A model generated the notes under the pieces. That model was not told the origin of the DNA, ran no database searches, and saw only the letters and a program-made list of their open reading frames with translations. A stretch of DNA of 64,000 bases, from contig NZ_CP089507.1 of the NCBI RefSeq assembly GCF_021233355.1, positions 496,001-560,000 on the forward strand, read 5' to 3'. Numbering within the stretch: position 1 is the stretch's first letter; every line of letters starts with the position of its first letter. Positions 33,877 to 38,521 of the stretch are shown piece by piece. A program made the translations under genes and the position numbers. This stretch comes from Luteimonas fraxinea. GTDB lineage: Bacteria; Pseudomonadota; Gammaproteobacteria; Xanthomonadales; Xanthomonadaceae.

Positions 33877-34815
33877 ATGCGCCAGCTGTCGCGTCACGCC
33901 CTGTCCGCCACCCTCGCCGCCTGCGTGCTCGCGCTGGCCGGCTGCGCCACGTCCGGCGCACCAGCGACCGTCGAGACCCGTTCCACACAGGAACTGCTGG
34001 ATGCCTCCACGCCTGAGGACTGGCGCACGCCCGACCCGGCCAACCTGCTGTACATGGATGTCGACGGCGGCCGCGTGGTGATCGAACTGGCGCCGGCGTT
34101 CGCGCCCGAACACGTCGCCAACATCCGCACCCTCGCCCGCGGCGGCTTCTGGAACGGACTCACCCTGTACCGCTCGCAGGACAACTTCGTCGTGCAGTTC
34201 GGCGACATCACCGAGGACGGCGCACCCGGCAAGCCGATCGGCAGCGCACGCGCGAAGTTACCGGCCGAGTTCGATCGCGCGTCGGCCGGTCTCGCCTTCC
34301 ACGCGCTGCCCGACCCCGACGGCTGGGCGGCGCAGGCCGGTTTCGCCGACGGCTTTCCGGCCGCGCGCGACGACCGCAACGGCGCCGGCCGCGCGTGGCT
34401 CGCGCATTGCTACGGCACGCTGGGCGCGGGCCGCGACATGGCGCCCGATTCCAGCAACGGCACCGAGCTCTACATCGTCACCGGCCAATCGCCGCGCCAG
34501 CTCGATCGCAACATCACCACGGTCGGCCGCGTGCTGCAGGGCATGGAACTGCTGAGCGTGCTGCCGCGTGGGACCGGTCCGCTGGGTTTCTACGAGGATC
34601 CGAAGCAGCGCACGCCGATCCGCCGCATCCGCCTCGCCTCCGAAGCACCAGCAAACCAGCGCACGCCGCTGCAGGTGCTGCGCACCGACACGCCGCTGTT
34701 CGACGCCGTGGTGGAATCGCGCCGCAACCGCCGCGACGACTGGTACGTGCAGCCGGCTGGCCACATCGACCTGTGCAACATCAACGTGCCGGTGCGCACG
34801 CCGCCGGCGAGCTGA
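33877..34815 (+). CDS. Periplasmic cyclophilin-type peptidyl-prolyl isomerase lipoprotein
   Basis: The 312-residue product has a lipobox (LALAGCA, Cys at about residue 25) and a cyclophilin-like domain. It reads [31 protein letters not shown], then DNFVVQFGD, and later [32 protein letters not shown], which are family landmarks; an insertion of about 60 residues separates the two. It should catalyse proline isomerisation during folding of envelope proteins. The C-terminal extension of about 60 residues (from [11 protein letters not shown]) is not part of the core. The acetyltransferase gene starts five bases beyond the stop. Confidence 0.87.
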
Positions 34816-34820
34816 TCACG

Positions 34821-35342
34821 ATGCGCATCGAGACCGAACGCCTGCTGTTGCGTCCGCACACGATCGAGGACTTCGACGCGCTGCGGGCGATGATCCGCGA
34901 CCCCGAGGTGATGCGGCACATCACCTCGATCGTGCCCAGCGACGAGGACATCTGGAACCGGCTGCTGCGCTACATCGGCCACTGGACCGCGTTCGGCTTC
35001 GGCATCTTCGCGGTGATCGAACGCGAAACCGGCCGCAACGTCGGCGGCGCCGGCTTCGCGGATTTCCGTCGCGATCTGGGCGATGCGTTCTCCGCCTCGC
35101 CCGAGGGTGCCTGGGTGTTCGCCAAGGAAGCGCACGGTCGCGGCATCGCGTCGGAAGCCACGCAGGCGATGCACGCCTGGTTCGACGCACAGCCCTTCGG
35201 CGGGCGCAGCGTCTGCATCATCAATCCGGACAACGCGCCGTCGCGGAAACTGGCCGGCAAGCTCGGCTACGTCGAAACGGGTCCGACGCAGTACCACGAT
35301 GAGACCACGCTGACCTTCGAGCGCCTGCGACCGCGCGCCTGA
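34821..35342 (+). CDS. GNAT family N-acetyltransferase (RimJ/L-like)
   Basis: The 173-residue protein starts MRIETERLLLRPHTIEDF, a standard GNAT opening of the RimJ/RimL group. The acetyl-CoA loop is EAHGRGIASEATQAM (about residues 107-121), where the R/Q-x-x-G-x-G/A pattern is partly kept. NPDNAPSRKLAGKLGY near the C terminus is typical. It probably acetylates an amine on a protein, antibiotic or metabolite. It is five bases after the cyclophilin gene and ends one base from the convergent, disrupted speG homologue. Confidence 0.88.
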   Translation: MRIETERLLLRPHTIEDFDALRAMIRDPEVMRHITSIVPSDEDIWNRLLRYIGHWTAFGFGIFAVIERETGRNVGGAGFADFRRDLGDAFSASPEGAWVFAKEAHGRGIASEATQAMHAWFDAQPFGGRSVCIINPDNAPSRKLAGKLGYVETGPTQYHDETTLTFERLRPRA

Positions 35343-36185
35343 TCAGGCGTCGCGGTGGCTGTCGTCTCTGCCCAGCGCCTGGTGCTGGAACAGACACATG
35401 CGGATCGCGCTGCGATAGCGGCCGTCGCTGAAGAACTCGTCGACCAGAACGCCTTCGCGCTGGAAGTCCAGCGACTCGTAGACGTGGATCGCCGCGGCAT
35501 TGTCCACGTCGACCAGCAGGTACAGCTTGTAGAGATTGAGCACGCGGAACGCGTAGGCGATCGCGAGCGACGTCGCCGGCCGCGCATAGCCGCGGCCCTG
35601 ATGCGTCGGCGAGATCATGATCGCGAACTCGGCGCGCCTGTGCAGATGATCGATCTCGACCAGCTCCACCATGCCCACGCGCGTATGACTGCCGTCTTCG
35701 ACGATGAAGCGGCGTTCGCTCCAGGACCTGCTCACTCGATTGGGGCATGTCCCGCCGCGCCTGAGCGCGTTCGGCGCAAGGAAGAGCGAGGGCGCTTATG
35801 TCGATAAGCAACCGAGTGATGACGCAGTGCCGGACGCGCTCAGGCGCGGCCCTTCGGGTTGCCGCGTCCGGCGCCCAGACGCCCGCGCGCCGCTCGAACA
35901 GGCACCCGGCCTGTCGCTTCGCGGCGCAACGAACCTCTGGACGCCGGACGCGACAACGGGACACGCCCCAATCGGGTGAGCAGGTCCTTCGTGGATATGT
36001 TTGCGGAACAGTTCCTCGAGCTCGACGAAGGACTCGTAGGGCTCCTCGAACCAGTAGCTCATGACCGTGCGGTTGTTGTTGAGCTCGTGGACGAAATGCA
36101 GATCGCCGCGTTCGAGTGGGCGCAGCAGCACCGGCAACTGTTCGTCGGCGGTTTCGGTCGTGGGCGCGTTCGCATTCATGGGCAT
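35343..36185 (-). pseudogene. speG: speG-like spermidine N-acetyltransferase, split by a MITE
   Basis: The N-terminal piece (36185 to 35988) reads [31 protein letters not shown], then RKHIHE. The C-terminal piece (35723 to 35343) resumes [33 protein letters not shown] and ends [14 protein letters not shown]. Together they make a 192-residue protein matching SpeG, which acetylates spermidine. A 264-bp inverted-repeat element (35724-35987) lies between them. Its length is a multiple of three so frame is kept, but it contains stop codons, leaving a 129-residue N-terminal product and a possible GTG-initiated 130-residue C-terminal piece at 35735. Loss of the acetyl-CoA site from the N-terminal part should abolish activity. 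Removing the element would restore HIHE-WSERRF in frame. Confidence 0.88.
35724..35987. mobile_element. MITE-like element, 264 bp, with 31-bp terminal inverted repeats
   Basis: The left end GGACCTGCTCAC and the right end GTGAGCAGGTCC are the tips of 31-bp inverted repeats (35724-35754 and 35957-35987) that differ at two bases. An internal inverted repeat of 21 bp (35754-35774 and 35830-35850, one mismatch) flanks a GCTTAT-GTCG-ATAAGC hairpin (35794-35809). No transposase is encoded. The element interrupts speG. A target duplication is uncertain: the edges read AGGACCT and AGGTCCT, so either a short imperfect one or none exists. It should be mobilised in trans by a full-length transposase with matching ends. 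Confidence 0.85.
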
Positions 36186-36285
36186 GAGACTACGCCCCGC
36201 CGGTGACAGATGCGTGTGTCGTCACGTCGGCTTTCCGTTTCGCTGCCTAGCCTGCACGTCATCCCCCGCACCACAAGGAACCGAC

Positions 36286-36582
36286 ATGCCCATGCTCCGC
36301 ATCCGCCTCACCGGCAGCGACGACACTGCACGCGCGGTGATCAATCTTCTGTCGAGCGTGGAGGGCATCGAGCACGTCGAGGAAATCGACGACCTGATGC
36401 CGCACATGGACGATGCCGATTCCAGCTCCGCCGGTCTCAGCGATGTCGCCGGACCGAAGATGCACGAGATCGAAGTCGAGGTCGGCAATCCCTCGACCGA
36501 GCGCAAGGTGCGCGAGGCGATCGAAGCGCTGGCCTTCGACCTCGACGCCGTCGTCGAGTTCGAGACCGAAGAAGAAGGCTGA
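36286..36582 (+). CDS. Small acidic protein, unknown function
   Basis: The 98-residue product starts after CACAAGGAACCG. It is very acidic, with a beta-alpha-beta-like N terminus (MLRIRLTGSDDTARAVINLL) and a similar second half (HEIEVEVGNPSTERKVREAIEAL), separated by a Ser/Ala/Asp linker. This looks like a ferredoxin-like or ACT-like fold. The C terminus ends EFETEEEG. No catalytic residue or signal is seen, so it is a cytoplasmic protein, perhaps a small ligand-binding regulator. Confidence 0.65.
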   Translation: MPMLRIRLTGSDDTARAVINLLSSVEGIEHVEEIDDLMPHMDDADSSSAGLSDVAGPKMHEIEVEVGNPSTERKVREAIEALAFDLDAVVEFETEEEG

Positions 36583-36618
36583 GCCCGCACACCATTCGCG
36601 GCGGCGGGCTCGCTGCAC

Positions 36619-37569
36619 TCAGCTCGCCGCCGGCAATGCCTCGATCAGCTTGGCCATGCGTTCGCGCTGCGCGGTATCCGGCAGGCGACCGCGGCCTGCA
36701 CCGAGATTGTCGATCAGGTTCGAGGCGCGACTCGTCGCCGGCGTCGCGCATGTCACGGCCGGATGCGACAGCACGAACTTCAGGAAGAACTGGCCCCAGG
36801 TGGCCGCATCGAATTCCGCTGCCCAGTCCGGCACCGGCGTTTCGCCGACGCGACGCCACAGCCGCGTCCGCCCGAACGGCGCGTAGACCAGCACACCGAT
36901 GCCGCGCTCGGCCGCCAACGGAAGAATCGTCTCTTCGACGTCGCGGTTGTCGATCGCGTAATCCACGCCGATGAAATCCAGCGGCTCGTTGCGCATCGTC
37001 TCGATCAGCTTCGGATACGCCGGCTTGCTGGTCGACGTGACGCCGATGTAGCGCACGCGCTTGGCCTCTTTCAGTTCCTTGAGGATGCCGAGCTGGGTCG
37101 GCACGTCGCCGAGGTTGTGCACCTGGATCAGATCGATCGTGTCGCGGCCGAGGCGCGAGAACGAGGCTTCGATCTGCGCGCGCGCCGCAGCCGGGTCGGC
37201 CTTTGCATCCGCTTCGCGGCCGGCGACATTGACCTTGGTCGCCCAGAACACGCGATCGGCGATGCCGAGGTCCTGCACCGCCTTGCCCGCGACCTCTTCC
37301 GAGGCGCCGTAGCTGGGCGCGGTATCGAACACCGCGCCGCCTTGGTCGACCAGCGCGCGCAGCACCTCGTTGAGCGCGGATGCGTCGTCGCGCGCGGTCG
37401 ACGAGAACGTCGCCGAGCTGCCGAGACCGACGACGGGAATACGTTGGCCGCTCGACGGAATCGGGCGCGTCAGCAACGGCGCGGGCGTGGCGGCGAACAG
37501 CGTGCCGGGCAATGCCAGCGACAGGCCGGCACCGAGTGAGAGTTTCAGGGCATCGCGACGGGTGACCAT
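36619..37569 (-). CDS. Tat-exported aldo/keto reductase
   Basis: The 316-residue protein starts MVTRRDALKLSLGAGLSLAL, a twin-arginine signal, after GGAGGACGCC. The AKR barrel shows VVGLGSSATF, the catalytic-region residues DTAPSYG (Asp, Tyr), ATKVN (Lys) and DLIQVHNL (His), and a C-terminal cofactor region. NADPH-dependent reductases are normally cytoplasmic, so export of a folded, cofactor-loaded enzyme via Tat is plausible. Xanthomonads have several such exported reductases of unknown substrate. It is convergent with the small acidic gene and about 150 bases from the DUF4349 gene upstream. Confidence 0.87.
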   Translation of the reverse strand: MVTRRDALKLSLGAGLSLALPGTLFAATPAPLLTRPIPSSGQRIPVVGLGSSATFSSTARDDASALNEVLRALVDQGGAVFDTAPSYGASEEVAGKAVQDLGIADRVFWATKVNVAGREADAKADPAAARAQIEASFSRLGRDTIDLIQVHNLGDVPTQLGILKELKEAKRVRYIGVTSTSKPAYPKLIETMRNEPLDFIGVDYAIDNRDVEETILPLAAERGIGVLVYAPFGRTRLWRRVGETPVPDWAAEFDAATWGQFFLKFVLSHPAVTCATPATSRASNLIDNLGAGRGRLPDTAQRERMAKLIEALPAAS

Positions 37570-37723
37570 GGCGTCCTCCTTGCATGGATGGCGCAGGCCG
37601 GGCCTGCGTCGTGAACCGGCGCGGTGTGGGAACTGCGTTGCGCGTCCGGCGTGCCGGCATGACAGGCGGCGTCCCGAGTCTGCAATACCCCACCGCGTCG
37701 GGCAACCGACGCGCTTGATGCGA

Positions 37724-38521
37724 TCAGCCGCGGCGACGTCGCCGCCACAGCGCGCGCAGCGCGAGGAACAACGCGAAACCGGCGATGCCCAAGGGCAACA
37801 GGAATGCGGTCGCGCGGATCGTCCAGGCGGTGCCGACCGCCAGCGTGCCGCCGAACTCGCGGAACGCCATCGCGATCTCGCTGCGGCCCTGCTCGCCGTC
37901 GCGCGCGCGCCGCTGCACGGTCAGCAGTTGCGTGTCGATGCGCCGGCGGTGCTGGGCGCCGTCGAGACGCGCGGCCTCGATCTGCGCTTCGGTCGCGGCG
38001 ATGCGCTCCGACAACGCGATCATGTCGGCCACCGACAGATCACGTCGCGCTTCGAACGCCTGCAGCCGCGCCAGTTCCTTCGTCAGCCGGTCCTGCTCGG
38101 TGGTGTTGTCGCGTACGACGACGGCGAGATCCTCGGCGCGCGTACTGCGCTCGCCGGCCTCGCCACCCTCGCCTGCCAGCGCGATCATCGGTTCGATGCC
38201 CGCGGGCGCCATGCGCAGCACCGCGCGTGCGGACGGGCGATCGCCGGCCGACTGCTGCGCTTCGATCAGCGTGCACGCACCGAAGCGCGCATCGCGGCAC
38301 GCGGCCTGGATCGCCTGCAGCCGCGGCACGATCATCGCCCCGTCCAGCTGCACGCCGACGCTGTGCTCGTAGGCCAGCAAGGCCTCGGCGTCGTCTGCCT
38401 GCGCGGCGGCGCCCTCGGTATAGGCCATGCCGTCCGCATGTGCGTTCGGATTCGAGCAAGCGGTGGTCAGCGCGCCCATGAGCGCGAGCACGCCGACCCA
38501 ACGCAGGTGCGCGCGCCTCAC
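37724..38521 (-). CDS. DUF4349-type lipoprotein
   Basis: The 265-residue protein starts with GTG, overlapping the stop of the GFA gene by four bases. A signal with lipobox (LTTACS, Cys about residue 22) is followed by a periplasmic domain, a coiled-coil (about 150-215, EQDRLTKELARLQAFEARRD... and ATEAQIEAARL) and a C-terminal transmembrane helix (TAFLLPLGIAGFALFLALRAL) ending in six basic residues. This arrangement fits DUF4349, a domain found in envelope proteins with unknown function. Confidence 0.75.
   Translation of the reverse strand: MRRAHLRWVGVLALMGALTTACSNPNAHADGMAYTEGAAAQADDAEALLAYEHSVGVQLDGAMIVPRLQAIQAACRDARFGACTLIEAQQSAGDRPSARAVLRMAPAGIEPMIALAGEGGEAGERSTRAEDLAVVVRDNTTEQDRLTKELARLQAFEARRDLSVADMIALSERIAATEAQIEAARLDGAQHRRRIDTQLLTVQRRARDGEQGRSEIAMAFREFGGTLAVGTAWTIRATAFLLPLGIAGFALFLALRALWRRRRRG

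Follow-up and report, generated by a model that had tools for sequence, protein, structure and literature searches.

REP sequences are palindromic and GC-rich, and the Rickettsia palindromic element (RPE) is read through in frame. According to PMC2229807, ERIC/IRU and Correia/NEMIS elements are non-autonomous sequences that form long hairpins on transcription; ERIC measures 127 bp and Correia 107 or 155 bp, and such elements are mostly A+T-rich and shorter than 200 bp. PMC3733652 puts REP sequences at 20-40 bp.

In Luteimonas fraxinea, within the window of 64,000 nucleotides analysed here, a speG homologue is divided by an element that can be set beside each of these systems. Compared with ERIC/IRU and Correia/NEMIS, its family is likewise non-autonomous with long hairpins, but the speG element is 266 bp long, GC-rich and built around a core of tandem G-A loops. 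With REP/RAYT it shares a palindromic, GC-rich make-up, at 266 bp as against the 20-40 bp quoted above. A RAYT/REP origin was rejected on this length and on the lack of a match to the Y1 transposase model PF01797 in L. fraxinea itself (G000), in Luteimonas terrae (G009) and in G073, a genome with 26 matches to our element model; PF01797 is present in 33 of 52 genomes of the genus. Like RPE the element is palindromic and lies within a coding gene, but it has stops and divides that gene. Its family resembles IS5-family insertion sequences and MITEs in having members whose ends are identical over 17-18 bp to ends beside IS5-family transposase pieces in two genomes (G256 and G036), a TNA duplication at part of the copies, no coding content and many copies, and its GAG/GGG ends and TNA duplication resemble those of the IS1031 and ISL2 subgroups of IS5. 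Unlike IS5-family MITEs the present family has a conserved, covarying four-stem interior and mostly no exact duplication, and its ends vary by lineage while the interior stays recognisable.

Results

The features of the locus are as follows, the element's plus strand being the one that reads AAGGAAGA..GATGAC in the core.

35343..35722, minus strand: C part of speG, starting at WSERRF, whose W codon takes the element's last base
35723..35988, plus strand: palindromic MITE-like element, 266 bp
35723..35754, plus strand: left terminal inverted repeat (AGGACCTGCTCAC...), 32 nt
35754..35850, plus strand: hairpin A, arms 35754-35775 and 35829-35850
35778..35823, plus strand: conserved core of 46 nt with tandem G-A internal loops
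35850..35858, plus strand: CCC-NNN-GGG mini-hairpin separating hairpins A and B
35858..35957, plus strand: hairpin B, arms 35858-35879 and 35936-35957
35957..35988, minus strand: right terminal inverted repeat, 32 nt
35989..36185, minus strand: N part of speG, with HIHE as its last residues; the ORF opens at the ATG at 36185, relatives beginning at the second Met, 36179

The sequence-only reading of this DNA had described a mobile-type element with inverted ends and a nested inverted repeat that splits a speG homologue, and all of this is confirmed. It had also given the ends as 31 bp with two mismatches and the element as 264 bp; the mismatches stand (30 of 32 positions complementary, 94%), the ends are 32 nt, and 264 bp is the net gain in a gene that holds an element of 266 bp. 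Its interior contains two nested inverted repeats, each 22 nt long, and the element is non-coding and contains stops, as had been read. The R1 model scores 115 bits at 35756-35868, this same copy being included in its training set. The speG-sense strand folds with a minimum free energy of -206 kcal/mol and the opposite strand with -199 kcal/mol, and with z scores of -15.6 and -14.2 against 200 dinucleotide shuffles per strand the fold is far beyond chance.

Rfam at curated cut-offs gave no match in 34000-38000, and the best sub-threshold scores in 35650-36050 came from a miRNA model at 25.9 bits and rsmX at 19.1 bits (cut-offs 84 and 56). Nine other loci yielded four weak matches at E <= 0.1, of which one fell on an element: L149 matched a plant miRNA model at 31 bits (cut-off 90). 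Separately, a glycine riboswitch model scored 67.5 bits at L158:270-445 on the minus strand, below its cut-off of 110. A self-splicing intron was rejected on the lack of an Rfam match at cut-off and on the altered junction residues, DQ to E/W.

Against the spermidine N1-acetyltransferase model NF011709 the N part covers positions 5-54 and the C part 56-172, either half alone scoring below the whole-protein cut-off, and the insertion point falls at positions 54-55. The solved structures nearest to the C part are the spermidine N1-acetyltransferases 5wif and 6d72. We examined 41 speG loci, of which 34 were readable by motif (PS02340 counted twice, as L041 and L070), two were carriers (L036 and L071) and five had no motif match. 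Every one of the 34 readable loci has an open HIH-DQ-SERRF junction, and both carriers, L. fraxinea and L. terrae, read HIHE-[element]-WSERRF. On the speG sense strand cacga-cca-gagc becomes cacga-[AGGACC..GGTCCTG]-gagc; the element, 266 bp with its terminal A/T, replaces the three empty-site bases cca, hence the net gain of 264 bp, and this copy has no target duplication. The proposal that precise excision would restore the gene does not hold, since removal of 264 bp would leave E-W and not the D-Q seen at all the open junctions.

Further copies were found, as had been anticipated: the covariance model, trained on 37 of the 54 core sequences available, places four family copies in L. fraxinea and matches 19 of the 52 genomes of the genus (E <= 0.01). 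The core pattern gave 42 matches in 15 of the 52, and across the order it is present in 65 of the 398 genomes sampled, spanning 20 of 98 genera and families f1 and f12; a reversed control pattern gave none in every genome listed in both scans. With narrower spacing in a class sample of 369 genomes (364 outside the order) L. fraxinea alone matched. One query of plasmids and phages returned no match, and of 23 pattern matches in viral contigs none passed the model at E <= 0.1. In the open-access literature, mostly represented by the openings of abstracts and with ISfinder and subscription journals outside its scope, we recognised no description of the family, which we provisionally regard as undescribed.

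Parsed copies (n=48) fall into 37 of 262-270 bp and 11 of 157-207 bp. For alignment 34 were selected by length (258-275 bp kept) and L128 was omitted, giving 33 full-length copies over 277 columns, whose near-constant length is partly due to this filter. They support 94 consensus pairs, 74 of them with compensatory change, in a structure of four stems: an outer stem of 32 pairs, hairpin A, the mini-hairpin and hairpin B. Between the two speG copies 10 of 106 pairs have changed, four of them compensated on both sides, two one-sided and still paired, and four broken. Hairpins A and B may be related, given that hairpin B on the opposite strand weakly matches the hairpin A model at L311:1237-1353 on the minus strand (33.6 bits). 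Genome G036 has amplified a shorter form, about 186 bp long (L314-L326), with TCA duplications in L314, L317, L323 and L326.

Compensation is predicted both by selection on a folded strand and by DNA-level repair of quasi-palindromes, and strand bias did not settle between them. G-U exceeded A-C by 32 to 4 in 45 distinct pattern-selected cores; in the 33 full-length copies the outer stem gave 31 to 20, the hairpin A arms 35 to 9, the A core 19 to 0 and hairpin B 10 to 30. A clear strand bias was not upheld, the sign being opposite (6 to 19) in the 27 of 44 model matches outside the pattern, where 12 of the 19 come from one site in one amplified G036 subfamily. The four G-A loops, whose apparent invariance in pattern-selected cores is partly forced by the pattern, read GA/GA in 38, 26, 35 and 10 of the 44 model matches.

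From 98 located copies 93 were parsed, and 82 insertions remained after likely shared ones were dropped. An exact 3-bp target duplication, always TNA, accompanies 11 of the 82 (shuffled mean 2.7, with 0 of 500 shuffles reaching 11), and exact 4-bp duplications that reach two bases into the ends occur in another tally of 11 of 82 (shuffled mean 4.2), mostly, by inspection, as CTAG, a palindrome and so ambiguous. Most of the 82 insertions are without exact duplication. Empty sites in relatives were found for speG (the 34 open junctions) and for two other copies of L. fraxinea, ins2962913 and ins3810529, neither of which has a clean target duplication. In 66 of the 82 insertions one junction or both are spanned by a stop codon, where about 41% is expected from a per-end background of 23%, and at the two other L. 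fraxinea copies with empty sites the element's AG has converted TAA or TGA into TAG. Stop-codon targeting as a separate mechanism was set aside: TNA and CTAG targets in a GC-rich genome together with selection against in-gene insertion may explain the excess.

One of these two copies (L206, C1:3810529) lies between putative bamB-like and der-like GTPase genes, named by eye, and the TAA stop of close relatives is TAG there, from the flanking T and the element's AG. At the other (L176, C1:2962913) the relatives' TGA stop was turned into TAG by the copy, and L179, at a contig end in G020, is an apparent internally deleted remnant of the L176 copy.

A full-length transposase with the same ends had been envisaged; what we found are IS5-family pieces with matching ends in two other carriers, and none in L. 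fraxinea. The IS5-family transposase model NF033580 scores 157 bits in G036 and 145 bits in G256 (cut-off 110). The G256 score belongs to the DDE part, the DUF4096 part reaching 94 bits, below cut-off. These pieces sit inside GAGCCTGTTCAAAGTCTC ends, with internal duplications and outermost flanks TGA/TGA, in a genome with 43 core-pattern matches, and over 18 bp the ends are identical to both ends of the MITE copy L163 of another genome, G411. L242 (G256:C46) is an IS5-family element with tandemly duplicated left and right segments. G036, with 20 model matches, has three PF13586 matches, two of which adjoin one end each, GAACCTGTTCACGATCT or GAGCCTGTTCACGATCT; GAACCTGTTCACGATCT shares 17 identical bp with the left end of MITE copies from the same genome, for example L317. 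PF01609 was matched in five of 15 carrier genomes searched (G036 not among them) and PF13586 in two of 18; by these models most carriers searched, L. fraxinea included, have no such transposase. In L. fraxinea no DDE_Tnp_1, DDE_Tnp_1_2 or Y1_Tnp match was obtained at E <= 0.001. Among 12 fetched PF01609 (DDE_Tnp_1) loci AGRGCCTG occurs on both strands in one region only, L242 with the overlapping L246.

L. terrae THG-MD21 (L008, L071) carries the insertion at the same base, with an element 92% identical and the same three bases replaced; over 265 aligned bases the two elements differ by 20 substitutions, with one gap besides. In the sister strain PS02340 (Lysobacteraceae bacterium, G020) the speG site is empty, a state that had been suggested as worth looking for in sister strains, although its flanks are nearer to those of L. 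fraxinea (three blocks at 89-94%) than the flanks of L. terrae are (six blocks at 80-90%). Identity between L. fraxinea and PS02340 is 90.8-98.7% in 20 of 22 bins, the exceptions being 88.7% at 35989-36050 and 76.9% at 36121-36185; with L. terrae it is 76.6-95.7%, but 53.8% in 36121-36185. L. terrae is the nearer of the two in 35989-36050, and they tie in 36051-36120. Away from the element, sites at which L. fraxinea agrees with PS02340 greatly outnumber those at which it agrees with L. terrae (114 to 32 in 34000-35342, 19 to 4 in 35343-35640, 23 to 4 in 36061-36200 and 106 to 15 in 36201-37000), and beside it they are balanced (4 to 2 in 35641-35722, 2 to 4 in 35989-36060). This pattern fits a short exchanged tract, with few sites to go on and some of them changes peculiar to PS02340. 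PS02340 has a lesion of its own, a 1-base deletion in the C part of its empty-site speG (L070/L041, G020:C11), possibly an assembly error.

The insertion is older and less simple than first thought. Mobile-element activity is borne out by the other copies and by the IS5-family elements with matching ends in relatives; that it was recent is doubtful, because L. terrae shares the insertion with a diverged element while the closer sister is empty. From these comparisons short-tract recombination appears the likeliest path, the disrupted allele having probably passed between the L. terrae lineage and that of L. fraxinea after the split from PS02340. Synonymous divergence (dS) between L. fraxinea and PS02340 is 0.16-0.25 in four stretches and 0.45 in the N core, that between L. 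fraxinea and L. terrae is 0.28-0.55, and the elements have diverged less than the synonymous sites of L. fraxinea and PS02340. The insertion could instead be ancestral to all three, PS02340 having regained an intact allele by recombination, that is, the same MITE by another path. The identical insertion point and replaced bases in both carriers would agree with this, as would the unusually distant N core of PS02340, but it would require the element to have changed several times more slowly than synonymous positions (0.08, as opposed to 0.28-0.55, between the carriers), and we regard such an origin as somewhat unlikely. Two independent insertions at one base in two species are very improbable: the family does have target preferences (TNA, CTAG), but the two speG copies are alike over their full length and replace the same bases, and among the other matches listed (at least 100 bp) none exceeds 82% identity and none spans the full 266 bp.

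Loss of polyamine acetylation, which had been called probable, is plausible for L. fraxinea, where the C part has Gly changed to Asp in a Y-E-x-x-G-F stretch and there is no second speG-like gene (a C-part search at E <= 0.001 gave only the locus itself), yet the changes in both halves are mostly synonymous, as they might be if the halves were still functional. On the L. fraxinea branch since PS02340 the C part has 11 synonymous and five non-synonymous codon changes, the Gly-to-Asp change among the latter, and the N core six and none; on the PS02340 branch the counts are five and none, and seven and none. The N-terminal tail (0 synonymous, 2 non-synonymous) was set aside, its count including a codon upstream of the likely start. 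All 33 other readable loci have the Gly (of the 41 loci 34 were readable, PS02340 counted twice), and the C part of L. terrae retains it. Close SpeG is patchy in the genus, with a match at E <= 1e-50 in nine of 37 sampled genomes, L. fraxinea included.

Could the split gene still work, its N and C polypeptides being made separately, by cutting of the transcript or reinitiation of translation at the element, and then reassembling? Between the carriers dN/dS of the C part is 0.072, inside the range that the three closest intact pairs span (0.052-0.080), and that of the N core is 0.044 (intact pairs having been computed for the C part only), but such counts cannot tell whether the constraint acted before or after the insertion. 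The Gly kept in L. terrae favours function; the Asp of L. fraxinea speaks against it, and a consensus scan of 35300-36400 gave no promoter-like site. We hold a working split gene to be quite unlikely. To judge from codons and homologues, SpeG is likely lost in L. fraxinea; for L. terrae the matter is undecided.

Discussion

The family is best read as an IS5-family MITE because of the 17-18-bp identical ends at IS5-family pieces in two carriers and the TNA duplications in 11 of 82 insertions. If this reading held, the family would be a transposase-dependent bacterial element with structural conservation of its whole interior and not just of its ends. Taken together, our results point to a probable course of events in which an IS5-family transposase acting in trans, of the type whose pieces occur in the two other carriers, moved a non-autonomous MITE into speG at model positions 54-55; the disrupted allele would then have been exchanged within a short tract, and SpeG would now be inactive in L. 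fraxinea. We put this no higher than probable, since the G256 ends and the MITE copy compared with them are in different genomes and each G036 piece offers a single end. Two sister lineages have different speG lesions, and the distribution of the insertion contradicts the relationships of the strains.

One may further speculate that the family is a structured parasite of two layers, in which selection on a folded strand (RNA or single-stranded DNA) keeps the four-stem interior across two bacterial families and the outer repeats track whichever IS5-type transposase is available. We consider this reading unlikely at present.
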